DNA of 64,000 nt from positions 62,001-126,000 of the forward strand of contig DVDT01000020.1 in assembly GCA_015296085.1 (NCBI GenBank), in the 5' to 3' direction. The position numbers were made by a program, and so were the translations under genes. The notes under the pieces were generated by a model that searched no databases, was not told the origin of the DNA, and saw only the letters and a program-made list of their open reading frames with translations. How positions within the stretch are numbered: position 1 is the first letter of the stretch; the number at the start of each line of letters is the position of its first letter. Origin of the DNA: Trichormus sp. M33_DOE_039 (GTDB lineage: Bacteria; Cyanobacteriota; Cyanobacteriia; Cyanobacteriales; Nostocaceae). Shown here in pieces: positions 33,508 through 51,433 of the stretch.

Positions 33508-36500
33508 CTACTCAAAAGAACTAATCAAAGTAACACGTCCCTGAGAACCGTAAGCAACTTCAGCGATGTAAAGATTAGAATCATGCAACTCATCAATGAT
33601 GTGCTGTGCTGAAGTTTTTGCATCTAAACTGGGGCTGAGGTCAATTCCTCTGGTAAATACATTCGGCCATTCCCATCTCAGAGTTTTGACTAACCCAAAT
33701 AAACCAGCACCGATCGCACCAAAGTTCACATTATGCTCAAACCCAAAACTTCCATCTAACCGAGTCACAGTGAAGAAACAACTGCGCTCAAAGCGTCCGG
33801 CTTCAGTCAAGGATTTTTTCAAGTGCTTCGCCATAAAGAAAACGTGCTTGACAATTGCTTTTTCTTCTGGAATGAAAGGAATTTTCCCGGTGTTATTTAC
33901 CTGAAAGCCTGGGTGGAGGTGAATTAAAGCCCCAATCGTGCCGTAGTTATTAGCGATCGCCGATAATTTTTCTTGCAGTAGTTCTTCACTCATATCTGCA
34001 AGGCTGACTTGGTTCACGCCTGCGGGTAAAGGCGAACGCTGTGGAACAATCGATTGGGGGAAGCTTAAAACTACCACTTTCCAACCACGTTCTGTTAAAG
34101 CTTGCGCTACTTGGGAGGTAGTCAGAGAGCCATCATCGGTGATTAAACAGATGTGTCCCTCTGGCAATGAAAACTCTAAACTATCCGGTGCTGGCAGGTA
34201 TTTGAGCTTGGCTGGACGGCGTTGTATGTTGTCAATTATTTTGACTGGCTGCCAGTTAAACTCAGACTGAGACTTTTTTTTTTCACCTCCCACCAGTTTC
34301 TGGAGGTATTCAACAATTTGACCAATGGTGCGGAGGTCGCCTAATTCTTCAAAGTTGGGTTTGGGTAAGTTGGGATATACTTCTTGCAATCCACCTAAGA
34401 TTTCTACTCGCTTGATAGAATCAATCCCCAGGTCAGCCTCCATGTCCATTTCCAGTTCTAGCATTTCTACTGGGTAGCCAGTCTTCTCACTGATGATGTT
34501 GATTAGAGTTTGACCGATATCTGCATAGTCGGTGGTATCGGCAACTTCAGTTTCAGCAACTGTTTCTACGACGGCTACTGGTTCAGGTGCAGGGGGGGCA
34601 ACTACAGGCGTAGGTACTACTTCTGGTGCAGGTGCAGCTACTTCTACTACTGACTGAGTGGCGACTGCTACAGGTTGACCGCTACCAAAGTTAGCTTGTA
34701 GGAACTCGATAATTTGGCCGATGGTACGTTTTTCTGCCAGTTCTTCTAAGTTGGGCTTGGGTAGGTCAGGATAAACTTCTTGTAATCCACCTAAGATTTC
34801 TACCCGCTTGATAGAATCAATCCCTAAGTCCGCCTCCATGTCCATTTCCAGTTCCAGCATTTCTACCGGGTAGCCAGTCTTATCACTGATAATGGTTAAG
34901 AGGTTGTTGCCTAACTCAGCCAAATTCAAGGCGGGAGCAGCTACAGGTGCAACTTCTACTTCTTTGACTGGGGGAGCAATAACTTGAGCCAGAGGTGTAG
35001 GTGCAACCACGGGTGTTTCTACTACAGGCTCAGGCTGCATTTGCCAAGCTGCGGGTGCAACAGGTGCATCAGTAATAGTGAATTCAGGTTGTGCTACAGG
35101 CTGAGATTCTACTTTAGCTACAGATGTTTCAACAACAGGGGTGTCGATAGTGAAAGCAGGAATTGGGCTGCTAACTTCTGGGACTGGTGTTTCAGTTACT
35201 GCCTTCTCGTTGCTAACTTCTGAGACTGGTGCTGCGGTGGCTGGTGCCGTCACGCCACTGGCAAGAACCATTGAGTATTGTTGCTGAATGAGGTCGAAGA
35301 AGTTTTTCGCGTATGCTACTTGTTCCTGAAGATATTGTTCATGGATGCGGAGGGTTTCACCTTGTTGGGAGTGAAACTGCATCAAACTGCGCTCCAAGCT
35401 TTCCATCACTACTAGCTTGAGTTGCGCAGCTTCTTGGGAAGTCTTAGCATTAGCAAACAAAGCATTTTGCTGTTGCATCAGTTGGAAGAACGCTTTGGTA
35501 TATTCCATCTGATGGTTGAGGTAAGTACCATGAACTTGCAAGTTTTCAGCTTGATTATGCTGGAACTGAGTCATCAGGTACTCTAAGCTTTCTAGCAATC
35601 GCTGGAAGTTTTCCAGTTTTTCTGGTGTTTGCATCTTCTTTTCTTCGGCTAGTTGAGGTGCAAGGATCGCAGAGTTCATTTGAGGTTTGACTTCAGTAGT
35701 AATAGTAGAGTTATTAGCAATTTTGGCGGCGCGTCCGTTACCGTTAGTTGCTTTGACTGGTGCAGACATTGCTGGTGTCACCGTGGTCATAGTTGCAGAC
35801 ATTGCTGGTGTCTCTGGCTGTGGTTGAGACGCAGAGATGGCAGGTATTTCTACAACTGGGGTAGCAGCGACGTTAACTGTGGGTGCAGCAGGTAAAGATA
35901 CTTTGTGTCCATCATTCAACGCTTGCACAAAAGCGTTTTTGGTTTTTTCAGAAACATAGTTGATACCCCGTAAGGTGATGCTGAGACCTTTCTTTTTGTC
36001 GGTTGGCGGTAGAGTAGGTTGGGTTTGGTATGGGTCGATGTTCTTCAACTGCATACCCAAGACACGCATCTGCACTACTGCTTCCCGCAAGGAGCGATCG
36101 CTGTTTTTCTGTGCGCTGGGGTTCAAGGCAACGGTAACATGGGGGCGATCGCCGAGAATTTCTTTGACTAAGTTAGTCAAAATTCTCTTTGGCCCAAACT
36201 CCACGAAGCAATAACCACCAGCTGCGTAGATATTTTCAATTTCCTGCTTGAACAGCACCGAGTTAGCGAGGTGAGTTTCCAGGATTTTTTGAATTGCTTG
36301 GGGTTCTTTGGGATATTGCTTACCTGTAACGTTGGTGAATACAGGAAGTTTTGGCTCATTGAAGGTGACTGATTTAGTAGCGATCGCAAATGATTTTTGC
36401 GCAAAAGCAATCAGTGAGGTGTGGAAGGCGGCGGACACTGGTAAGGGTATGGCTGCATAACCTTGTGCTTGTAAAGCTTCACGCACTTTCGCAATGTCGC

Positions 36501-38961
36501 CGGTTGAACCTGCCAAGACAAACTGAGTGGGAGAATTATAATTGGCGATCGTTACCTGTGGAAAACGCTTCAGAATCGGTTCGATTTTGCTGAGGTCTTC
36601 CTTCACTGCCAGCATTGTACCAGCATCGTGATCTGGGTCTTTGGGCGCAGCCATTGCTTGACCCCTAGCTTTCACCAAGTACATATAATCTTGGTCGCTC
36701 AATACACCCGCAGCCCACAATGCGGTGATTTCACCAAAGCTGTGTCCAGCTACAAAGTCTGACTTAAAGCCAGCTTGTTTGAGGATGGAATATAAACCTG
36801 CGCTAAATGCGCCAATTGCTGGTTGCGCGTATTCTGTGCGTTGCAGTGCAGCAGCTTGAGCTTTTTTCTCGGCTTCATCAAACACCGGATGGGGGAAAAC
36901 AATTTCCGAGAGCGATCGCAAGTTATCTTTGAGCAACAACCCATCCATGTAACCATAAAGACGGCGCAAGGTGGGGAAATTCATCACCAGTTCTCGTCCC
37001 ATTTCCAGGTATTGAGAACCTTGACCGGAGAACAATGATACAACTTTACCGCCTAATTCCATCCCGGAAGCACGGTAGTAAATCCCTTGGGGATGTTCCC
37101 AGTTAGCTGCCGTAGCTTTGTGCTTAAGCAAATCGATGGTAGTTTGCATCAACTTACAAGCTTCTGCGAGATTTTCTGCCACAAAACCAACTCTCGCGGC
37201 ATTTTGGGGAATTTCTTCAGATTGGCACGCTTGCGCCAAGTTGAGGAAATGTCTTTCACCGTCTGCTGATTGCAAGTTACTTAAAGCTTCTTCACACTTC
37301 GTCAGTAATTCCGCAGGGTTGGAAGCAAACAACAGAATTTCGCGGGGGGTGCTGTGCAGACGGTAGGGGCGGTTTTGTTCGCTGTCGTATTCTTCCAAAA
37401 CTATGTGGTAGTTTGTCCCACCAAAACCGAAGGAACTAACACCTGCCCGTCTTGGTGCTTCACCTTCTGCCCGAATCCAAGGACGAGTTTCAGTGTTGAG
37501 ATAAAAAGAGGAATTTTCAATGTTGAGCTTGGGGTTAGGCTCAGTGATGTTAATTGTTGGTGGCAGAATTTTGTGATGCAGTGCCAAAGCTGTTTTAATT
37601 AAGCTAGCTGCACCCGCAGCTGCTTTGGTGTGACCGATTTGGGACTTTACACTACCCAACGCAATATGCTGCTTTTTGTTGTCGTGTTGCGAGAAAAAGT
37701 CTCTTAAAGAACCGAACTCAGTAGGGTCGCCAGCCATTGTCCCTGTACCGTGGGCTTCCATCAGACCAACGGTAGCAGGAGAGAAACCTGCGTCTTCGTA
37801 AGCCCGGCGCAAAGCGTTGACTTGACCTTCTTTGCGGGGTGCGTAAATACTCTTGTAGCGTCCGTCGCTAGAAGTACCAATCCCTTTGATGACTGCGTAA
37901 ATTTTATCGTTGTCGCGTTCTGCATCTTCCAGACGCTTCAGCACTAGCATACAAACACCTTCACCCAGCATCATACCATCGGATTTAGCATCGAAAGGTT
38001 TGACATTCTCGCCAGGGGAAACGGCAGGAGTTTTGCTGAAGGAGATGTAAGCCATGATGGTGTTGTCGGTGTCTACACCACCAGTCAGCATCATGTCAGC
38101 ACGATGCTCAACGAGTTCGCTAATCGCCATTTTCAAAGCACCGAAAGAACTAGCACAAGCTGCATCAACCACGCAGTTCATTGCACCAAAGTTCAAGCGG
38201 TTAGCAATGCGTCCGGCGACGACGTTAGCCAACATTCCAGGGAAAGCGTTTTCATCCCATTTAACGTAAGCACTTTGGATTTTTTCAACGATTTTGTTGG
38301 TGTCTTCGTCAGATAGTCCACTGCTTTTGAGGACTTTCTTCCAAATAGGGTATTCTAAACGTGCTGATAAGGGCATACCCAATTGCTTGGCCATTGCTAC
38401 CCCTAACACTACGCCTACCATCTCGCGGTTAAATTCACGAGATTCGCCGTAACCAGCATCTTCCATTGCTTCTTTTGCAACTACTAAACTTAATAGTTGT
38501 GAAACGTCAGTTACTTCTAAAATGCTGGGAGGAATACCGAACTCCATTGGGTTAAAATCAACCTCTGGAATAAACCCGCCGCGTTTACAATAGGTTTTAT
38601 CTTCAGGAGTTCTGGGGTTGGGGTCGTAATAATCTTCAACGCTCCAGTGGGTATCAGGAACATCAGTAATACAATCAACTTTATTAACGATGTTTTGCCA
38701 ATACTCCCGTAAATTTCTGGCTTGAGGAACTATTGAGGCCATACCAATGATGGCGATAGGATTTTGTTGTAGTTGTCTGTTAATTTTGTTAATTGACATA
38801 GATTTTTCTGAGTTCATTTTTTTTCCTTCAATACACCGCAACAAAGCCTTTTCGCAGTTACTAATTTGGCTTTCTAACTCTGCCAAGGCAGCATCAATTG
38901 AATTAGCAGACATAGGACATATTATGTTCTGGGGTACTGTGGATTGTGCAGCTACAGTCAT
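33508..38961 (-). CDS. hglE: HglE: multidomain polyketide synthase for the heterocyst glycolipid aglycone
   Basis: HglE (1817 residues) is the central synthase. Order: ketosynthase, about residues 65-500, with Cys269 in DAACASSF, His in AHGTGTMAGD and His in SQIGHTKAAAG; acyltransferase, about 640-930, with Ser741 in GHSFGEITAL; a long linker with two repeated LMQFHSQQGE/YLMTQFQHNQ helices and Ala/Pro/Val-rich stretches; two nearly identical ACPs with serines 1383 and 1515 (GIDSIKRVEIL in both); then a Rossmann-like region (ICLITDDGSLTTSQVAQAL) resembling the structural half of a ketoreductase. No catalytic KR motif follows; it begins in the next gene. The start at 38961 has no Shine-Dalgarno; Met17 (38913) is an alternative. 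HetI should activate both ACPs. Confidence 0.96.
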   Translation of the reverse strand: MTVAAQSTVPQNIICPMSANSIDAALAELESQISNCEKALLRCIEGKKMNSEKSMSINKINRQLQQNPIAIIGMASIVPQARNLREYWQNIVNKVDCITDVPDTHWSVEDYYDPNPRTPEDKTYCKRGGFIPEVDFNPMEFGIPPSILEVTDVSQLLSLVVAKEAMEDAGYGESREFNREMVGVVLGVAMAKQLGMPLSARLEYPIWKKVLKSSGLSDEDTNKIVEKIQSAYVKWDENAFPGMLANVVAGRIANRLNFGAMNCVVDAACASSFGALKMAISELVEHRADMMLTGGVDTDNTIMAYISFSKTPAVSPGENVKPFDAKSDGMMLGEGVCMLVLKRLEDAERDNDKIYAVIKGIGTSSDGRYKSIYAPRKEGQVNALRRAYEDAGFSPATVGLMEAHGTGTMAGDPTEFGSLRDFFSQHDNKKQHIALGSVKSQIGHTKAAAGAASLIKTALALHHKILPPTINITEPNPKLNIENSSFYLNTETRPWIRAEGEAPRRAGVSSFGFGGTNYHIVLEEYDSEQNRPYRLHSTPREILLFASNPAELLTKCEEALSNLQSADGERHFLNLAQACQSEEIPQNAARVGFVAENLAEACKLMQTTIDLLKHKATAANWEHPQGIYYRASGMELGGKVVSLFSGQGSQYLEMGRELVMNFPTLRRLYGYMDGLLLKDNLRSLSEIVFPHPVFDEAEKKAQAAALQRTEYAQPAIGAFSAGLYSILKQAGFKSDFVAGHSFGEITALWAAGVLSDQDYMYLVKARGQAMAAPKDPDHDAGTMLAVKEDLSKIEPILKRFPQVTIANYNSPTQFVLAGSTGDIAKVREALQAQGYAAIPLPVSAAFHTSLIAFAQKSFAIATKSVTFNEPKLPVFTNVTGKQYPKEPQAIQKILETHLANSVLFKQEIENIYAAGGYCFVEFGPKRILTNLVKEILGDRPHVTVALNPSAQKNSDRSLREAVVQMRVLGMQLKNIDPYQTQPTLPPTDKKKGLSITLRGINYVSEKTKNAFVQALNDGHKVSLPAAPTVNVAATPVVEIPAISASQPQPETPAMSATMTTVTPAMSAPVKATNGNGRAAKIANNSTITTEVKPQMNSAILAPQLAEEKKMQTPEKLENFQRLLESLEYLMTQFQHNQAENLQVHGTYLNHQMEYTKAFFQLMQQQNALFANAKTSQEAAQLKLVVMESLERSLMQFHSQQGETLRIHEQYLQEQVAYAKNFFDLIQQQYSMVLASGVTAPATAAPVSEVSNEKAVTETPVPEVSSPIPAFTIDTPVVETSVAKVESQPVAQPEFTITDAPVAPAAWQMQPEPVVETPVVAPTPLAQVIAPPVKEVEVAPVAAPALNLAELGNNLLTIISDKTGYPVEMLELEMDMEADLGIDSIKRVEILGGLQEVYPDLPKPNLEELAEKRTIGQIIEFLQANFGSGQPVAVATQSVVEVAAPAPEVVPTPVVAPPAPEPVAVVETVAETEVADTTDYADIGQTLINIISEKTGYPVEMLELEMDMEADLGIDSIKRVEILGGLQEVYPNLPKPNFEELGDLRTIGQIVEYLQKLVGGEKKKSQSEFNWQPVKIIDNIQRRPAKLKYLPAPDSLEFSLPEGHICLITDDGSLTTSQVAQALTERGWKVVVLSFPQSIVPQRSPLPAGVNQVSLADMSEELLQEKLSAIANNYGTIGALIHLHPGFQVNNTGKIPFIPEEKAIVKHVFFMAKHLKKSLTEAGRFERSCFFTVTRLDGSFGFEHNVNFGAIGAGLFGLVKTLRWEWPNVFTRGIDLSPSLDAKTSAQHIIDELHDSNLYIAEVAYGSQGRVTLISSFE

Positions 38962-38964
38962 ACC

Positions 38965-39077
38965 AATTCAAAATTCGTCTTGGAAAGTTCTGTTCTGAGA
39001 CAACCTCCGCACCCTGCGGGTAGGCTGACAAATCCATAAGAAAGACAAGCTACAGACTTTCCGCAAAATTCAAAATT
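38965..39077. repeat. Inverted-end repeat in the hglE leader
   Basis: The ends AATTCAAAATTCGTCTTGGA and ACTTTCCGCAAAATTCAAAA match the 64-bp units near 13820. The interior is longer and has its own palindrome (CACCCTGCGGGTAGG). It ends 4 bases before the hglE start codon, so it is transcribed into the leader if the promoter lies upstream. Confidence 0.88.
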
Positions 39078-39273
39078 AAGAAAGCTAGATTTGTCAGCGT
39101 TTCTATGTTTGAATTTGTGGATGAATTTTGAATACTCGGTTGGTTTAATTGCTGTTGCTTACCCTGATGATTTCTATTTCTTGTTAACAAACCGTGGATA
39201 TTAGGGAAAAAGTAAAAAGGTAAAAGATTTATTTCTTTTAGGTTTTGGCTTTTGCCTTCCCTTTGTATTCCCT

Positions 39274-39552
39274 TTATCCAACGCTCGACTCTTGATATTG
39301 TGGCAACAGGTCGATGACGTTATTGAAGCTGGTAAAATAATCTTGAAGCGCGGTAGCTGCTTGACCAGTAAATTCAATCCATTCGTAATGGTGGAAATCT
39401 TGGGCAATTGTATCTAAATTGGACAATGGAAACTTAGAAGTAGCTATTAGAACAGAAACGCTTTTTTCTCCTAAACTAGTTTGTTGGTCTAGTTTTACCG
39501 CAGCAACATAGCTGGTATTAATGACAACGTTCTGTATTTTGATAAATGCCAT
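39274..39552 (-). CDS. Small conserved protein upstream of hglE
   Basis: This 92-residue protein is of unknown function. The sequence begins MAFIKIQNVVINTSYVAAVK and continues with a mixed beta/alpha pattern (VSVLIATSKFPLS; ATALQDYFTSF), no cysteines, no signal peptide and no membrane segment. It resembles small cyanobacterial proteins of the type found singly near hgl genes, but I do not know a named domain. It is co-oriented with hglE and 312 bases upstream, so it could share the hgl promoter. Codon use looks like its neighbours. A pseudogene is unlikely as the frame is intact and the start follows the pattern of the family. Confidence 0.7.
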   Translation of the reverse strand: MAFIKIQNVVINTSYVAAVKLDQQTSLGEKSVSVLIATSKFPLSNLDTIAQDFHHYEWIEFTGQAATALQDYFTSFNNVIDLLPQYQESSVG

Positions 39553-40281
39553 AGCCAGTTTCAGCGTCCAGGATAATATATGTTATGGGATTTGACCCGA
39601 AAAAGTTGACAAGTTCGTTACAGAAGAAATACCACCTTGAATCCGAATAAATACAGGAATTGGAACGAATTATCAACCATTGATAAGGGATAGCAACGCA
39701 GCTAGCTTTAGTTATTTTTTACTACTGTTCTACTCGCACATAAATAACTAATTCGCCGTGCTGCTTTGGAGCATTGAATTAATACAAAGAATAGCATAAT
39801 TCATAGAAACTAAATCATTGGTTTAAATTAATTTTATGAACCAAATAGATATTTGGTGATGAAAATATCAAATTGCTCATAGCACATTAGTATAATTAAC
39901 GACTTATATATCCAAGGTGATAACCAGTTTGATGTAGACTCCTAATTTGCATATATCTTTGTGTAGACAAGGCTTACAGTTTTTGGTCAAGCCCGTGAAT
40001 TTTTCATCAATCTACAAATCAGATTACATGGCAGAGGAAATTTGTTTTTCACCAGCACATCATAATTAATAGATGTTTTTTGATGAATTTTTAATATAAA
40101 TGGTTGGATGCTATCGAAGAGTATTTATTAAGCAAACATTCATTTTATATATTGTACAGAATAAACAAAATAGATAAAAGGAAATAGGGAACAGAAATTT
40201 GAGAAATTCTATAATGTTTGAATTCAGGCGCAGATAGCAGTTCTCAATCCAAAATGGTACAAGCTTTTGCTTTCAGAGACG
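39553..40281. other. 729-bp AT-rich gap, probable hgl promoter region
   Basis: No gene is visible on either strand. As the gap lies upstream of the small protein and hglE, it is the best candidate for nitrogen-step-down regulated promoters. I looked for a GTA-N8-TAC NtcA site and did not find a convincing one. Confidence 0.5.
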
Positions 40282-41628
40282 CTACCGCGAACCCCTAAAG
40301 TATTTTGAATTTTGAATTGTCTTACCTGTCCAGGTTTGCCAACGTCCAAGTCCACGATTAACTAATTCTAAATTGCTGTCACCAACAAAACAAATGCGTC
40401 CTAATCTTTCGCAAGCGATGAGAATTTCACCATGTCCCATAAATGGAGCAATCACAAAATTATTAGGATTGGTGTACAAATTGAGCAAATAATTAATAAT
40501 TCCCTCTACCCCTTCAACATTAATTGGGGTTTGAGGTTTTGTTATTATTTGATGAGAAAATATTCCTACATAAAGATTGCCTAGTAATAACTCATATTGA
40601 AAAGGCATTTGATTATTTTTGTAAAAATCATATATATGTCCTTCAGAACGAATAACAGCGACAACTCTGGCTTCTTCTACTAAGTAATTATGCTCCCAAG
40701 CACTGGAGAGAGTAGCGATCGCCAGTGCTGCATCTGAAGGTAATAAATTGCGAAACTCTTGTTTTGACGTGTCGCCACCATATACTAAATGCCTGCCTAA
40801 TACCCATTCATCACCAGCTTGGATGGTGGAATTGGAAGCAGCTATCACATTTTCTGATTTATTTTGAGTTTTCTTCACAGCTAACTTAGCTTCTTTTTGC
40901 GCCACAGCACTTTTATAAGCTAATGTCTGTAACTCTTTTTGCTTCGCCTGTAATTCTTTAACTAATTGTGCTTGGCGTTCAGCTTCGGCTATATCTCCCC
41001 TAACTTGGGCTAAATCCTTAGCCTGTTGAGCTGATTCTGCTAAGGTACGCTCTTTTGTACCAGCCCTAGCAATATTTAAAAGTGCTGTGGGACTATCAGC
41101 GATCGCTGTACCTTTAATTAGCTGTTTCACTTCTGGATGAATACTTTTAGCAATCTGTTTCCCGTGCTGAAACGTGCGTTCTGAGTAACCAGCTTCCTTG
41201 GCTAACTCTAAAGTTCGCTTGGGTGGTGGTGAAATCATTTCACCACCTTTGAGAGTATGTTGATTGTCTCCCACCTTTGCCCGCAAACCCATGCGTTCGA
41301 GAATTTGGTCACGTTCTAACCATAATTCTGAACGTTCTAGGGGTTCTAACTCATTACGAATCAGATTTTCGTCAATTTCCGCCAATCTAGCTTGGTCAGC
41401 ACCAGCATAAGCGACGATATTGCACTCAATCGCCTCCAGTCCTAACAACTTACAAGCCGTCAGCCGATGCAATCCAGCAATCAAATTCAGCTTTTGGTCT
41501 ACAGTGATGGGGTTAAGTAAACCATTAGCCTTAATTGACTCCTTCAGTTCATCAACCTTTTCACTCTTGACCGGACGGCGGTTGCGACCGATTTTAATTC
41601 GGTCGATGGCTACTGTAGGCATAGACAA
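40282..41628 (-). CDS. ParB-domain protein fused to a degenerate DNA methyltransferase domain
   Basis: The 448-residue protein has three parts. Residues 4-95 are a ParB/Srx-type domain (IDRIKIGRNRRPV; LIAGLHRLTACKLLGLEAIE), and 100-195 continue as a ParB-like helical region. Residues 195-255 are an Ala/Lys/Gln-rich coiled coil. Residues 272-437 align by eye with the N4/N6-adenine methyltransferase half of phage ParB-methylases: WVLGRHLVYGGDTS, then PFMGHGEILIACERLGRICF and LGRWQTWTGK. The catalytic DPPY is absent: the expected site (about 301-312) reads ALAIATLSSAWE, and motif I lacks its usual DPFGGSG form. It is probably a non-catalytic DNA-binding regulator. No partner ParA is present. Confidence 0.78.
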   Translation of the reverse strand: MSMPTVAIDRIKIGRNRRPVKSEKVDELKESIKANGLLNPITVDQKLNLIAGLHRLTACKLLGLEAIECNIVAYAGADQARLAEIDENLIRNELEPLERSELWLERDQILERMGLRAKVGDNQHTLKGGEMISPPPKRTLELAKEAGYSERTFQHGKQIAKSIHPEVKQLIKGTAIADSPTALLNIARAGTKERTLAESAQQAKDLAQVRGDIAEAERQAQLVKELQAKQKELQTLAYKSAVAQKEAKLAVKKTQNKSENVIAASNSTIQAGDEWVLGRHLVYGGDTSKQEFRNLLPSDAALAIATLSSAWEHNYLVEEARVVAVIRSEGHIYDFYKNNQMPFQYELLLGNLYVGIFSHQIITKPQTPINVEGVEGIINYLLNLYTNPNNFVIAPFMGHGEILIACERLGRICFVGDSNLELVNRGLGRWQTWTGKTIQNSKYFRGSR

Positions 41629-42248
41629 TTCAAAATACCCTTTGGGATCTTGCTACAAAATTAAAGGCAGTTAGTCAAACCACTGAGCATTACGACTCAG
41701 CTACGCTGGATATGTTTCAAGAATATCTAGAAACCATGATTTAACTCAAACAAATCATAATAATGTCCAATACTACACAACTGCGGCGATCGCAATTCAT
41801 CAATAATATTCAACACACATCATCAGTAGTAGTCAGGGAAAGACACCACAATTCCCAATCAATTGACAAAATCACATTTTTTTGCAATGATTAAACACGT
41901 ATTTACACAATTCCTCCCTACCAACTTTTGAGTTTCCTCTTCGTATTAGTTGGGATTTAAGTTTAAGAAAAAACAAGCGTATTTTACGCTACTGGATGCG
42001 AAGCCTAATTAGTGTAGAACTGAGAAAGATTTGTAGTCAATTCACCATCATTAATGTTGCCGCTAAGTAACTTGTCTGCGGTAAGTATCAAACTTTCCAA
42101 GCATTCACATAAATCTAATTAGAATCTTTTGACATCGAGATTCATACAGGGAAAAATTGCTCATATTAGCCATCATTAACTGTTTATACCCAGAAGCATC
42201 AAAGGCTTCCTTTCCCAGTCCCTAGCCTCTCGATTTTGGAGCGTTAAT

Positions 42249-42519
42249 CTAAAATCCTTCTTGGAGAGTTCTGAGCGGAGGTTTCCTCCCACTGACAGGT
42301 GTAGGTTTTTAATAGAGCAGTGAGTGATGACTATCAAACCAACGACAGAATGATATTTTCATCCACCCCTACACCCTTATACCCTTACACCCTAAAACAG
42401 GGTCTCCTAGGCAAAGCGTAAAAAACCTACACCTGTGAGGTTTCCTCCCCAGCCTGCAGGTACTCCTACAGAGAACTCGCAGAGTAGCAAGCTACAGACT
42501 TTCCGCAAAATCCAAAATT
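42249..42519. repeat. Inverted-end repeat disrupted by MITE-A, upstream of hgdB
   Basis: The left end AAAATCCTTCTTGGAGAGTT and the right end ACTTTCCGCAAAATCCAAAA match the repeat at 38965-39077. The interior carries a GAGCGGAGGTTTCCTCCC half-hairpin of the 4295 type. It is interrupted by MITE-A and ends 35 bases before the hgdB start. Confidence 0.83.
42292..42439 (+). mobile_element. Miniature inverted-repeat element MITE-A, copy 2
   Basis: The 148-bp element has 19-bp ends CTGACAGGTGTAGGTTTTT and AAAAACCTACACCTGTGAG, nearly perfect inverted copies. GTTTCCTCCC stands on both sides (42281-42290 and 42440-42449), consistent with a target duplication. It matches copy 1 at 13070-13217 along its length. 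Confidence 0.88.
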
Positions 42520-42554
42520 CCTAGTCCCCTCATCACATCAATTGGGAAAAAAAT

Positions 42555-43763
42555 ATGGAAGTAAATAAAGAACGCCTACGCCAATTATTTATTAAACCCC
42601 AACGTCGGTGGCGGTTAGTTTTGGCAGCGTCAATCACTTTCGCGGCTGGACTAGTAACTTTATACAATTTTGCACCGCAAAAATTTCGCTCGCAAGACCA
42701 AGTTACCATCGCTAATCCTGCCAAAGTTGCACCTGTGAAAGTTGCTGTCACAGCGTTGGGACGTTTGCAGCCAGACGGTGAAGTAACAACTTTGTCTGCA
42801 CCCAGTTCTACCAACGGTATTCGCGTAGAACAATTGTTGGTGAAAGAAGGAGACGAAGTAAAAGCAGGGCAAGTATTAGCATACTTAGAAGATTATACCC
42901 GTGCTACCGCTGCTTTAGAGCAAGCTTTAGATAAACTGCAAATTGCTAAATCTCAATTAGCACAAGTTAAAGCAGGTGCTAAACCTGGAGACATTGAGGC
43001 ACAAAAAGCTACGATTACTCGCTTACAATCACAACTCAAAGGAGAAATTGCCACTCAAGAGGCAACAATCGACCGTATCCAAGCCGAAGTTAATAACGCA
43101 CAAACAGAAAACGATCGCTATCAACAATTACTCAAAGAAGGAGCTGTCGCTGCTTCTGTCGCCGATACAAAAGCACTACAACTCAAAACAGCACAACAAC
43201 AACTGACAGAAGCCAAAGCCGCTCTGAGTCGGACTCAAAATACTCTCGCCGATCAAATCAAAGAAGGTAAAGCCAAACTCAACAGTATTCAAGAAGTACG
43301 AACTGTAGATGTCGAGTTGGCACAAAATGAAGTCAAAAGTGCTGTAACAGCCGTCAGACAAGCGAAAGCAGACCAGGAGTTGGCTTATATTAAAGCTCCT
43401 ATAGACGGCAAAATTTTGAAAATTCATGCCAAAACCGGGGAAGCGATCAGCAACACTGGATTTGCTGATATTGGTAAAACATCACAAATGTATGTGGTCG
43501 CAGAAGTCTATCAAACCGATATTCAGAATGTCCGCATAGGTCAAAAAGCCTTTATTACCAGTCCTGCATTTAACGGTAAATTACAAGGGACAGTCAAAGA
43601 AATTGGTTTGCAAGTTGATAAACAAAGTATCTTCAGCATCAACCCCAACTTCGACACAGACCGCAGAATTATTGAAGTCAAAATATCTATCGATAAACCC
43701 GCAGATAATCAACGTGTATCTCGGTTAACTAATTTACAGGTTGATGTGGGAATTCAGATTTAG
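42555..43763 (+). CDS. hgdB: HgdB: DevB-type membrane fusion protein of an ABC exporter
   Basis: The 402-residue protein is of the HlyD/DevB family. One N-terminal transmembrane segment (VLAASITFAAGLVTLYNF) is followed by a lipoyl-like half (VTALGRLQPDGEV; VKEGDEVKAGQVLAYLED), a long coiled coil (about 110-260) and the second lipoyl half (IKAPIDGKILKIHAKTGEAI) with a beta-barrel. It would link an inner-membrane ABC exporter to an outer-membrane TolC-type channel for glycolipid deposition around heterocysts. The name follows the PCC 7120 gene at this position in the island, whose loss alters the glycolipid layer (from memory). hgdC follows after 74 bases. Confidence 0.9.
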   Translation: MEVNKERLRQLFIKPQRRWRLVLAASITFAAGLVTLYNFAPQKFRSQDQVTIANPAKVAPVKVAVTALGRLQPDGEVTTLSAPSSTNGIRVEQLLVKEGDEVKAGQVLAYLEDYTRATAALEQALDKLQIAKSQLAQVKAGAKPGDIEAQKATITRLQSQLKGEIATQEATIDRIQAEVNNAQTENDRYQQLLKEGAVAASVADTKALQLKTAQQQLTEAKAALSRTQNTLADQIKEGKAKLNSIQEVRTVDVELAQNEVKSAVTAVRQAKADQELAYIKAPIDGKILKIHAKTGEAISNTGFADIGKTSQMYVVAEVYQTDIQNVRIGQKAFITSPAFNGKLQGTVKEIGLQVDKQSIFSINPNFDTDRRIIEVKISIDKPADNQRVSRLTNLQVDVGIQI

Positions 43764-43837: not shown

Positions 43838-45016
43838 ATGAATTTTAAAATTCCTTTAGCATGGCTACAGCTAGCGCAACAAAAAATTCGTTTTTTGGTA
43901 GCTGTAGCCGGTATAGCCTTCATTGTTTTGCTGATGTTTGTGCAACTTGGTTTCCAAGATGCCCTTTATTCTAGTGCTACCGCAGTACACCAAAGCCTGA
44001 AAGGTGACTTATTTTTAGTCAGTTCTCAATATAAAGCTTTGACATCAAATCAAAGTTTTTCTCGGACTCGTTTATACCAAACTCTAGGGTTTGATGGCGT
44101 AGAATCAGTTAACGCCATGTATTTGCAATTTGCTAAATTAAAAAACCCTGCTACTGGTGAGAAATACTCTATCTACGTGATGGGTTTTGATCCAGGAAAA
44201 TCTGTGTTAGATATTCCTGAAATTGAGCAAAATTTAGATAAACTCAAAATTCCTGATGTGATGTTATTTGATAGGGATTCACGTCCAGAATTTGGCCCGA
44301 TCGCAGCGAATTTTGATCAAGGTGATACAGAACAGACAATTGAAATCTTTCCTTTTGATGGCCCTAGGGGTTACAAAGTCAGAGTCGGTGGCTTATTCAG
44401 CTTAGGCCCTTCTTTTGGTGTGGATGGTAACTTAATCGTCAGTGACTCCACTTTTCTTCGCATCAATCCCAATACTCGCCCAGTAGATAGGATAGATATA
44501 GGTATCATCACTCTCAGCCCTAATGCTGATAAAGAAAAGGTTTTAGCAAATTTACGAGCTAATTTACCAAATGATGTGAGGATATTTACCCGCCAAGGTT
44601 TTATTGATTTTGAAAAACAGTACTGGTCTGCTAGAACACCAATTGGGTTTATTCTCAATCTCATGTTGACAATGGCTTCGGTTGTAGGCGTGGTGATTGT
44701 TTACCAAATTCTCTACAGTAACATTGCCACACAATTTATTGCTTATGCCACATTAAAAGCCATTGGCTATCCCAATTCTTATTTATTAAATGTGGTGTTT
44801 CAACAAGCATTAATATTGGCATTACTAGCTTATATACCAGGATTCCTAGTTTCTGTAGCTTTATATAATTTTGCAATGGAAGCTACAAAATTACCAATTG
44901 TCATGACTGCGAATAACGCCTTAATTGTTTTTATATCCGCAGTATTAATGTGCATTACTTCGGGCGCACTCGCTATTAACAAACTTCGTTCCGCAGACCC
45001 AGCAGATATTTTTTAG
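43838..45016 (+). CDS. hgdC: HgdC: DevC-type ABC exporter permease
   Basis: The 392-residue protein has a MacB/FtsX-like permease layout: one N-terminal membrane segment (FLVAVAGIAFIVLLMFVQLG), a large periplasmic domain (about 50-255) and three C-terminal segments (FILNLMLTMASVVGVVIVYQ; LILALLAYIPGFLVSVALY; ALIVFISAVLMCITSGALAI). It matches DevC of the DevBCA heterocyst glycolipid exporter family. The usual third gene, the DevA ATPase, is absent: the next gene is an epimerase. HgdC must therefore borrow an ATPase encoded elsewhere. It lies 80 bases upstream of hgdA, and all three likely form one operon. Confidence 0.9.
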   Translation: MNFKIPLAWLQLAQQKIRFLVAVAGIAFIVLLMFVQLGFQDALYSSATAVHQSLKGDLFLVSSQYKALTSNQSFSRTRLYQTLGFDGVESVNAMYLQFAKLKNPATGEKYSIYVMGFDPGKSVLDIPEIEQNLDKLKIPDVMLFDRDSRPEFGPIAANFDQGDTEQTIEIFPFDGPRGYKVRVGGLFSLGPSFGVDGNLIVSDSTFLRINPNTRPVDRIDIGIITLSPNADKEKVLANLRANLPNDVRIFTRQGFIDFEKQYWSARTPIGFILNLMLTMASVVGVVIVYQILYSNIATQFIAYATLKAIGYPNSYLLNVVFQQALILALLAYIPGFLVSVALYNFAMEATKLPIVMTANNALIVFISAVLMCITSGALAINKLRSADPADIF

Positions 45017-45096: not shown

Positions 45097-46098
45097 ATGA
45101 ATTTGCAAAACAAGACCCTTCTGATTACTGGAATTGATGAATTTATTGGCTTGCGTGCAGCCGAGTTAGCCATAGCACAGGGAATGAAGGTGCGTGGGTT
45201 GCAAGGTTCTAATAATTCTGACATGGCCAAGAAATTGGGTGCAGAGGTGATTGTTGGTAGCGTCACCGATGCAGCTGTTGCTCAAAAGGCTTGTCAGGGA
45301 GTAGATATCGTTTTACATACCGCCCAAATTACTGAAGAGGCCGGCCCTATTAAACAGTTTCAGGAAGTGAATGTTGGCGGTACTGTGAACATTGCTAAAG
45401 CCGCCAAAAGTGCTGGCGTAAAAACTTTTGTGCATCTTTCTAGTATTTTGGTGTATGGGTTTGATTATAGCGATCGCATCACCGAATCCGGTACACTCTC
45501 CGCTAACGATAACCCCTACTGTCAAACCAAAATAGCAGCCGAAACCGCACTTTTACCCCTCAATTCTCCCCCAGATTTCGGCATCATTATTATTCGCGCT
45601 GGTGATGTTTATGGGCCTGGAAGTCTACCTTGGGTAGTCAGACCAATTCACTTTATGCGCCAAAAGTTATTTGCCTACCCCAATGATGGGCAAGGGGTGA
45701 TCAATCATGTTTATGTAGATAACCTGATTGATGCCTTCTTTTTGGCAATAGAAAAACAGACATACGGTGAAATATTTAATATCACCGACGGAGAAACAAC
45801 TTCCTGGAAAGAATATTTCATGCGCCTAGCAGCAATGGAAGGTTTACCGACTCCCATGTCTTTACCTAAAGATGAAATCAAACTGTTTTTAAAACTACGT
45901 CATCAGGGACAAAAACTATTTCGGAAAAAAGCCGATATTCTGCCAGAATCAGTTGATTTTATGAACCGTCCTTATGCTTGTTCTATTGCTAAAGCGCAAA
46001 GTCTGTTAGATTACAAACCCAAAATTGATTTAGAAACAGGGCTATATCAGACCAAAACTTGGTTAGAAAAGACTGACATTCAAAAGCTGCTGAAATAA
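45097..46098 (+). CDS. hgdA: HgdA: NAD-dependent sugar epimerase of the heterocyst glycolipid locus
   Basis: This 333-residue extended SDR has an N-terminal Rossmann fold beginning LLITGIDEFIGLRAAELAI, a variant of the TGxxGxxG motif in which the second glycine is Glu-Phe spaced. The catalytic serine is in FVHLSSILVYG and Tyr/Lys in YCQTKIAAE. It belongs to the NAD-epimerase/dehydratase family; the PCC 7120 gene at this place is hgdA, reported as a UDP-galactose 4-epimerase (from memory). It would set the sugar donor used for the glycolipid head. A 36-bp hairpin repeat follows 20 bases after the stop. Confidence 0.87.
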   Translation: MNLQNKTLLITGIDEFIGLRAAELAIAQGMKVRGLQGSNNSDMAKKLGAEVIVGSVTDAAVAQKACQGVDIVLHTAQITEEAGPIKQFQEVNVGGTVNIAKAAKSAGVKTFVHLSSILVYGFDYSDRITESGTLSANDNPYCQTKIAAETALLPLNSPPDFGIIIIRAGDVYGPGSLPWVVRPIHFMRQKLFAYPNDGQGVINHVYVDNLIDAFFLAIEKQTYGEIFNITDGETTSWKEYFMRLAAMEGLPTPMSLPKDEIKLFLKLRHQGQKLFRKKADILPESVDFMNRPYACSIAKAQSLLDYKPKIDLETGLYQTKTWLEKTDIQKLLK

Positions 46099-50167: not shown

Positions 50168-51433
50168 ATGAACAAGCTAAAGCTTCGCGTTGCTTTGTTT
50201 ACAGGATTGTATGCTCCTTTTTTGACCGGGGTTTCAGTTGCAGTTCACCAGAGGGTGCGTTGGTTGTTACAACAAGGACATGAGGTATTTTTAGTCCATC
50301 CACAGTTTAATGATCAGTATCCCAAACAAGTAGGCGATCGCCCCATGCCTGGGTTAGATGAATTGAAATCCTACCCCAATTTCTCGTCCTACGCTTTCCC
50401 CACCGAACCGTTAATATTCTACAAATCTCTACCCCAACCTCTGAGCTATCGTCATTGGAACGACACCCAATTACTGACAGATTTTCAACCCGATATCATC
50501 GTGGTAGAAGAAGCTGCCCAAATGCGAGGGATGTACTCAGCTTTAATCCAAGGTTATGGTCGTCCTGTGGGTGTGCAGTATGCCAAACGTACTAAAACCC
50601 CGATTATTTCCGTCTTTCATACAGATATCGTTGCTTATATCAGATATTACTTGGGAGATGTTTTCTTTAATTTATTGCGTCCCATCATTCCTAAGCTGGT
50701 GAAGCAGTCTAGCGAAGTCTACGATCTCAATGTATTTTCTTCCCGCGAACAACTGGTTAAATACCAAAATTTAGGATGCTATCCTAGCGAATATGTTCCC
50801 TATCAGGGGATTGATTGCGAAAAATTCCATCCTCGCAATATCTGTCACAACCCCATCCCTGATGATGATAGACCGACGATTCTCTTCGTCGGACGCATCA
50901 CCGCCGAAAAGAATGTTCCTCAATTAATTGATGCTTATCCCTTAATTGCTGCCAAAATTCCCAATGTGCATTTAGTGATTGTCGGTAGTGGCCCTCTGGA
51001 TGCAGAAATTCGCAAACGCGCTGAGAAGTTTGGCTCAGGTATCACTATCTGGGGTGAGTCACACGGTACAGAATTGTTAGGTTGGTTTGCGCGTGCAGAT
51101 GTTTTTGTCAATCCTTCTGTAACAGAGAACTTCTGCACTACAACTAACGAAGCTTTAGCTTCTGGTACTCCCGTAGTTGCAGCTCTAGCACCATCTACCT
51201 CAGAACAGGTAACTCCCGGTCAAAATGGCTTTTTAGCTGAACCCAACAATCCAGCAGATTTTGCTCAAAAGGTTGTAGATATTCTTGCCAACCCTGAACT
51301 GAAAGCAGCTATGGCCGCACAGGCTCGTCCTTCCATCTTGGAATATGATTGGTCAGCCTGTATGGAGAAATTTGAAGCCAAACTGTATAGTTTGGTGCAA
51401 GTGTCTAATACAGCAGAAACTACGGTTGTTTAG
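50168..51433 (+). CDS. hglT: HglT: GT4 glycosyltransferase of heterocyst glycolipid synthesis
   Basis: This 421-residue glycosyltransferase is of family 4 (group 1, GT-B fold). The N-terminal half starts VALFTGLYAPFLTGVSVAVH with a glycine-rich acceptor site, and the C-terminal half carries LFVGRITAEKNVPQLIDAY, GSGPLDAEIRKRAEKFGSG and the EX7E-type VNPSVTENFCTTTNEALASG. There is no membrane segment. In PCC 7120 the gene at this end of the island (all5341, hglT) adds glucose to the hexacosane-polyol aglycone, from memory; this is the same position. The next gene is convergent beyond a hairpin repeat, marking the end of the island. Confidence 0.92.
   Translation: MNKLKLRVALFTGLYAPFLTGVSVAVHQRVRWLLQQGHEVFLVHPQFNDQYPKQVGDRPMPGLDELKSYPNFSSYAFPTEPLIFYKSLPQPLSYRHWNDTQLLTDFQPDIIVVEEAAQMRGMYSALIQGYGRPVGVQYAKRTKTPIISVFHTDIVAYIRYYLGDVFFNLLRPIIPKLVKQSSEVYDLNVFSSREQLVKYQNLGCYPSEYVPYQGIDCEKFHPRNICHNPIPDDDRPTILFVGRITAEKNVPQLIDAYPLIAAKIPNVHLVIVGSGPLDAEIRKRAEKFGSGITIWGESHGTELLGWFARADVFVNPSVTENFCTTTNEALASGTPVVAALAPSTSEQVTPGQNGFLAEPNNPADFAQKVVDILANPELKAAMAAQARPSILEYDWSACMEKFEAKLYSLVQVSNTAETTVV

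Follow-up and report, generated by a model that had tools for sequence, protein, structure and literature searches.

The window (the whole stretch of 64,000 nucleotides analysed, from Trichormus sp. M33_DOE_039) carries a gene for a ParB domain fused to a methyltransferase-like C-terminus. An initial annotation of this DNA had proposed the open reading frame, which was confirmed with the coordinates and strand given in Table 1; both motifs quoted there, WVLGRHLVYGGDTS and PFMGHGEILIACERLGR, were found in the protein. The TTG listed as its start is probably two codons too early, with translation starting at a downstream ATG, whose Met is invariant across a 30-row alignment (A1) of the window protein and 29 orthologues. 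These orthologues, at 70–89% identity, together with dN/dS values far below 1, indicate that the reading frame is real and not due to chance. Along the gene product there follow a ParB/NTPase domain, a probable helix-turn-helix (HTH), a coiled coil and the methyltransferase-like part. As first described, the gene lies between aglycone and exporter genes, with an hglE-like gene on one side and an hgdB-like gene on the other.

Table 1 Features of the locus in the window. Residue numbers count from ATG 41622 (446 aa).
Feature	Position	Strand	Remarks
hglE-like polyketide synthase	33508..38961	-	far side of the partner gene
92-aa partner gene, family unknown	39274..39552	-	in 27/29 orthologous loci
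ParB-pseudomethyltransferase gene	40282..41628	-	TTG 41628 as listed; conserved ATG 41622 gives 446 aa
Pseudo-methyltransferase domain	40315..40815	-	residues 270-436; hhalign, AF2 and PDB fold matches
Degraded motif I, IAPFMGHGE	40426..40452	-	residues 391-399
Lost catalytic loop site, SDAALAIATLSSAW	40696..40737	-	residues 296-309; FAFADPPY plus loop there in L060/L062
Long helical/coiled-coil linker	40837..41052	-	residues 191-262
Probable helix-turn-helix	41143..41214	-	residues 137-160; assigned by inspection
Box III-like DENLIR	41356..41373	-	residues 84-89
Box II/P motif GLHR (GxxR of the ParB-CTPase fold)	41464..41475	-	residues 50-53; aligns with GERR of Spo0J
Intergenic region, gene/divergent hgdB, 926 bp	41629..42554	.	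presumed shared control region
NtcA-type box GTATTTTACGCTAC	41979..41992	.	opens a conserved block pointing to hgdB
hgdB-like membrane-fusion protein	42555..43763	+	divergent neighbour
hgdC-like FtsX-type permease	43838..45016	+	
hgdA-like epimerase/dehydratase	45097..46098	+	

Domains of the gene product

The N-terminus matched the Pfam family ParB_N over residues 7–73, above the cut-off (32.3 vs 26.3 bits), and phage ParB families (PHROGs) over residues 5–239 of the 448-aa reading (E 3.5e-29). Motifs were followed in 51 copies: the window, its 29 orthologues and 21 whole-genome copies. We left out L030 (ParB part only, from another phylum), as well as L033 and L035–L039, which are the same genes as the window and L040–L044. 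All 51 copies had the GLHR of the P motif, and all matched DEN[LF][IV]R, so that the ENxxR motif is kept in the ParB domain; DENLIR resembles Box III of the ParB fold. The HTH stretch was largely invariant in A1, and a helix at residues 211–259 of the linker was predicted in the full-length AF2 model. Replacing Arg by Ala in GxxR abolished NTP binding in the proteins tested by others (PMC12704722).

Against TIGR00180, the model for canonical chromosomal ParB, the protein remained below the cut-off (40.9 vs 58.45 bits), and another gene of the same genome scored above the ParB cut-off. The gene has no parA beside it, its neighbours being hgdB and the partner/hglE, and no parS-like site was found in the window at ≤3 mismatches to the parS 16-mer. 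With parA not adjacent, parS not in the window and another ParB in the genome, a canonical ParABS role was rejected.

The C-terminus is predicted to fold as a beta-class N6/N4 DNA methyltransferase. Its Pfam score for N6_N4_Mtase (PF01555) was below the gathering cut-off of 26.7 bits, with 21.8 bits for the full protein and 23.4 for the C-terminus alone. DNA methyltransferase families of PHROGs did match it, phrog_498 reaching E 7e-10 with the C-terminus alone. A profile of the domain from 15 cyanobacterial copies, phage sequences excluded, aligned by hhalign with four intact methylases from viral contigs at 99.5% (E 4e-22, 162 columns). Against PDB sequences, this profile matched 5hek (E 1.5e-4), 5hfj (2.8e-4) and MboIIA 1g60 (0.027), and the sole further match up to E 1 was a phycoerythrin chain (0.54).

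An AF2 model of the C-terminal domain reached a pLDDT of 90 and a pTM of 0.87. Its alignment had 32 rows, two of them from viral relatives besides those of the window and 29 orthologues; as these two are real methylases, the model could lean towards a methylase. The first model, of the full protein, had a mean pLDDT of 59.6 in the C-terminus and was kept out of the fold searches. With the domain model, all 40 PDB matches found by Foldseek at E ≤ 1e-3 were titled DNA amino-methyltransferases or putative ones, at query TM scores of 0.56–0.69; the best was M1.HpyAVI (5hek; E 2.4e-9, TM 0.66). A viral library gave 28 matches at the same threshold, and the named ones were nearly all DNA methylases, with one ParB/Sulfiredoxin. 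The methylase ancestry first claimed for the C-terminal third is thus upheld by profile (hhalign and PDB sequences; below the cut-off in Pfam) and by predicted fold.

Colinear relatives with intact motifs were present in viral contigs, in line with the phage ParB-methylase link drawn at the outset. The proteins of L060 and L062 align with the gene product from end to end, at about 28–30% identity (alignment A2). They share the domain order over the whole length, with the ParB domain, the HTH region, the linker and a methyltransferase opening with LG-[RK]H and CG, and represent the phage ParB-N6/N4-methyltransferase fusions (PHROG 3264 + 498). Such N6N4-methyltransferase fusions of the ParB-CTPase fold are reported to be enriched in phages and prophage regions (PMC12704722). 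A ParB with a DPPY-type methylase was also found in at least five more loci (L064, L076, L096, L097 and L111) among the 18 read of 80 relative loci; the remaining loci read carried other methylases or none.

Unlike the gene product, L060 and L062 retain FAFADPPY, DPFAGSG or DPFLGSG, and E-[IM]-[DN]. A DPPY-like tetrapeptide (motif IV), searched as [DNS]PP[YFWH] after residue 250, occurred in none of the 51 copies, in agreement with its loss as first noted, and W-x-H-[ND]-Y-[LV] replaces it in all of them. Beyond DPPY and the following loop, two more stretches, of 14 and 12 alignment columns, are absent compared with L060 and L062, which brings the missing loops to roughly 40 columns. The altered motif I of the initial annotation was found as well: the window reads APF-M-G-H-G-E, which does not fit D-PF-x-G-S-G, whereas the intact L060 and L062 have DPF-A/L-G-S-G-Q/T. 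Every one of the 30 rows of A1 has Ala at the place of the motif I Asp; the remaining copies displayed have Ala, Ile, Thr or Ser there. A strict FxGxG was kept in 40 of the 51 copies and in none of ten paralogues from a second locus (see below). A Glu follows G-x-G/A in 50 of 51 copies by pattern, at a place where intact relatives have Thr or Gln. Both the G-[DN] after the strand downstream of motif I and the GLLN loop were found in all 51.

SAM sensing, suggested at first, may occur but is not favoured, with the acid of motif I lost, FxGxG limited to 40 of 51 copies and Glu replacing Thr/Gln.

Compared with beta-class N6/N4 methyltransferases (M1.HpyAVI 5hek, MboIIA 1g60, RsrI, CcrM), the gene product shares the predicted fold and differs in the missing motif IV, the degraded motif I and the absent loops. 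With the ParB-CTPase-fold orphans (Noc, DndB-like proteins and the methyltransferase fusions described in PMC12704722) it has in common GxxR, the Box III-like motif and the lack of an adjacent ParA gene. It differs in having, as known here from sequence, a dead methylase C-terminus instead of a dimerisation domain.

Selection was assessed by pairwise NG86 on 30 copies (435 pairs), discarding dS outside 0.1–2.5. Median dN/dS values, which are rough because synonymous sites are near saturation, were 0.066 for the ParB domain (328 pairs), 0.059 for the HTH region (residues 137–190; 283 pairs), 0.20 for the coil, the least constrained part (268 pairs), 0.095 for the dead domain (326 pairs) and 0.098 for the whole gene (359 pairs). 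Purifying selection on the dead domain is nevertheless plain. A decaying pseudogene was ruled out by dN/dS of about 0.1 and zero internal stops in 109 full-length copies; exceptions were a gene split in two frames in G252 and a fragment only in G266.

Island, partner gene and second locus

The surroundings of the gene are conserved. Homologues of hgdB, hgdC and hgdA were found on the divergent side in 28 of the 29 orthologous loci, and the 92-aa gene with hglE on the opposite side in 27; all three misses (L026, and L007 and L010, respectively) are contig ends. The linkage that the initial annotation proposed to look for is thus non-random. Neither of the two outcomes that could have overturned that annotation, a lack of methylase similarity or a random placement, was observed. 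In six of the 29 loci (L004, L008, L009, L013, L025 and L028) several kb of other DNA separate the gene from partner/hglE. Unlike the phage fusions, the gene occupies set positions in the chromosome, together with its partner and conserved neighbours, and is not carried on a phage or mobile element. In Anabaena PCC 7120, alr5348 has the same place beside hgdB, and was equated with the gene by position and orientation, not by sequence. The hgl island of that strain is described as comprising 19 genes, 14 of them with a shown role, and alr5348 is listed with those that may be missing; the sections consulted state neither a domain nor a function for it (PMC11804610).

In five genomes of another family (f17), given as a count only and taken from a draw of 195 genomes, the order hgdC-hgdB-gene-partner-hglE was preserved. 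No hgdA homologue was found within the 18-kb stretches of these five. None of them had a HetR match, vs one of one for the genome of the window, and NifH above the family cut-off was missing in three. Heterocyst formers have unicellular relatives in which hgl islands are described as well (PMC11804610, section 6). Because five HetR-less genomes share the arrangement, the gene is tied to the glycolipid PKS/export island and not to heterocysts as such. The tie to heterocysts made initially therefore needs correction, also since 51 of 147 genomes of the window's family have no full-length copy. A heterocyst-specific gene was rejected, the five HetR-less genomes carrying it. One of these, G016, has on the island's own contig a 64% relative (G016:C139:80885-82132) of the window glycosyltransferase at 50168–51433, which counts against a simple picture; the best matches to this glycosyltransferase in the other four reached 28–31%.

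Among the 147 genomes of the window's family, 100 matched the gene profile (E ≤ 1e-10) and 96 had a full-length copy, with 109 copies in total; these and the following genome counts are not phylogenetically independent. A HgdA homologue was found in 146; with 51 genomes devoid of a full-length copy, the gene cannot be a general requirement of the island. One stop codon inside the HgdA match, which could be a near-end stop or real decay, was seen in at least 11 genomes of several genera (among the matches listed, G297, G309, G262, G203, G283, G227, G207, G195, G208, G307 and G317).

We read 12 loci among the 51 genomes without a full-length copy, and none had the gene by tblastn (E ≤ 1e-10). 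Non-coding DNA by the partner position (window 39553 to about 39850) could still be aligned in 11 of the 12, the exception being L175 with 42 bases only. A second non-coding block (about 40057–40172) aligned at least partly in 11 of the 12 (not in L169). Weak C-terminal remnants were detected in L165 and L166 (E about 2e-4). These remnants and the persisting flanking DNA show that the gene was once present and then lost in at least some lineages. This non-coding stretch between gene and partner may function as an extended promoter or as a leader.

The 92-aa partner had no Pfam match over the cut-off and no NCBIfam, PDB-sequence or PADLOC match at the thresholds used. It was intact in 92 of the 96 genomes with the gene (91 without G250; the 112-aa open frames of G231 and G327, two-piece matches, would add two), vs 10 of the 51 without it. 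Of these 51, 28 had no partner and 13 had broken or partial copies, that is, truncated or stop-containing pieces only (G314, G321, G299, G244, G280, G290, G239, G292, G268, G257, G277, G275 and G312). Seven of the 113 copies counted as intact had a stop inside the matched stretch; five of these stops are the natural end of an 87-aa form, and the other two are in G245 and G250. A partner was on the same contig within 12 kb for 97 of the 109 gene copies, and within 3 kb for 90. Six genomes of the genus g122 had a gene copy without an intact partner inside 12 kb, and ten genomes had the partner without a full-length gene, two of them (G252 and G266) with the split or fragmentary gene. Both groups argue against a strict pair.

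No shared palindromic operator was detected in the intergenic regions between gene and hgdB, no dyad being common to most of the sequences (45 with five duplicates, then 40). The best dyads were AT-rich, with a 5-base half-site in 11 of 45 sequences vs at most 5 in five shuffles, and a 6-base half-site in 6 of 45 vs at most 3. Conserved blocks were seen near hgdB and near the gene, and Rfam gave no match at E ≤ 1 over 38800–42700. A GTAN8TAC site was present in 24 of 40 regions, vs a mean of 5.7 (maximum 12) in 100 Markov shuffles, and in 20 of these 24 the surrounding sequence looked the same by eye. It was absent from L001, L005, L004, L007–L010, L013, L025, L028 and six more distant loci, and was not enriched across the whole window, with 8 sites found and 11.1 expected. 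Upstream of hgdB in PCC 7120, a possible NtcA site that differs in its letters has been reported (PMC6161253). Most simply, the candidate NtcA-type box belongs to hgdB.

Ten unlinked paralogues, with 57–60% identity to the window protein, were read at a second locus (L045–L052, L054 and L055) and formed one clade (support 99/96). All ten were followed by a paralogue of the partner, and all ten were divergent to genes of one P-type ATPase family. The ATPases of this island have a heavy-metal-associated domain, as seen with Pfam in two members of the family, both from L046. A protein with an FGE-sulfatase domain was found in 10 of 10 and Mntp-type pumps in 8 of 10 of these islands.

The genome of the window encodes a second DPPY-less domain protein, on a DUF3102 N-terminus (L032 889–1872, plus strand; G000:C59:140658-141638). 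Its dead domain matched that of the ParB form by hhalign at 99.2%, and intact methylases at 95.2% over 53 columns. The DUF3102 form was full length in 4 of 60 genomes of the window's family and occurred also in other families of the order (L186, L190); the loci noted for it were L145–L147, L185–L187, L190, L194 and L195. Since the same loop is missing on two DNA-binding-type N-termini, the dead domain is unlikely to be mere debris; it may have been shuffled once already decayed, or decay may have happened twice.

Function and alternatives

Judged by its motifs, the catalytically dead, conserved variant of a known fusion type is real. From domains and layout we infer a regulator role and DNA binding. 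The parental ParB-methylase fusions are already known. The literature searched, which stopped short of most subscription journals, supplements and bioRxiv, yielded no account of the dead domesticated form, the partner or the second locus, nor of a function for the protein.

Our preferred reading, in which our confidence is about evenly balanced, is that of a local regulator that binds DNA under the control of an NTP and carries a pseudo-methyltransferase domain, a domesticated relative of phage-type ParB-N6/N4-methyltransferase fusions. The protein would dimerise through the coiled coil and bind a specific DNA site with its HTH, and an NTP (CTP or ATP) bound by the ParB domain would act as a switch. 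The pseudo-methyltransferase domain may serve as a non-catalytic platform for binding DNA or a partner. Together with the 92-aa partner, the protein would most likely regulate the operon transcribed away from it, i.e., hgdBC and glycolipid export at the hgl island, and the P-type ATPases at the second locus. The main argument for local regulation is that two unrelated loci repeat one layout, in which a transport gene diverges from the gene and the partner follows downstream. The joint occurrence of gene and partner, the low dN/dS values and the dead domain on DUF3102 speak for this reading as well. The lack of a widely shared palindrome, the 51 genomes devoid of a full-length copy, the g122 copies with no intact partner nearby, the partners without a full-length gene and the loss of strict FxGxG in 11 of 51 copies speak against it.

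The retained ParB_N and Box motifs and the long helical linker would also suit a ParB-like clamp that, once loaded in the vicinity of the island, organises or anchors the local DNA and does not control transcription. We consider such a clamp unlikely, as the gene is next to hgdB and the partner instead of parA, the window has no parS-like 16-mer, another gene of the genome exceeds the ParB cut-off, and a regulator is the better fit for two small divergent loci. That relatives can do without the gene, their sites being empty or reduced to remnants, and that several kb of other DNA intervene before the partner in 6 of 29 loci would be expected of a selected passenger with a function of its own (e.g., DNA or phage related), apart from glycolipids and ion transport and linked to them by descent only. 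The top PADLOC match, a type II methyltransferase (E 5.9e-18), points the same way. This reading is also rather improbable, since linkage is preserved between two families and the two transport loci, though unrelated, show one divergent layout.

Continued methyl transfer by a rewired active site, to DNA, RNA or another substrate, would agree with the intact predicted fold, the strict FxGxG seen in 40 copies out of 51 and the G-[DN] kept in all 51; the complete lack of DPPY, of its loop and of two more loops, the lost acid of motif I and the Glu in place of Thr or Gln make it very improbable. We give even less credit to the dead domain as a competitor or decoy, by which methylation sites would be masked or a different, active methyltransferase regulated: homology to ParB-methylases of the active type speaks for it, and the absence of three loop segments of the intact relatives against it.

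Returning to the NTP-gated regulator, a broader form of it is tentative and, in our view, somewhat doubtful. The DPPY-less domain may be a distinct non-catalytic reader module that cyanobacteria joined to two or more DNA-binding N-termini, among them ParB and DUF3102. The ParB form would be an NTP-gated clamp used as a dedicated local transcription switch, with the reader domain taking part and the 92-aa protein as co-factor, at envelope-lipid export and metal-ATPase loci.

If the protein does act as a regulator, the export of envelope glycolipids would have a control point in it, also in cyanobacteria without HetR. It would also show clearly how a phage-type DNA-modifying protein can become a chromosomal one without catalysis, and would offer a testable prediction on what a ParB/NTP switch does outside DNA partition.
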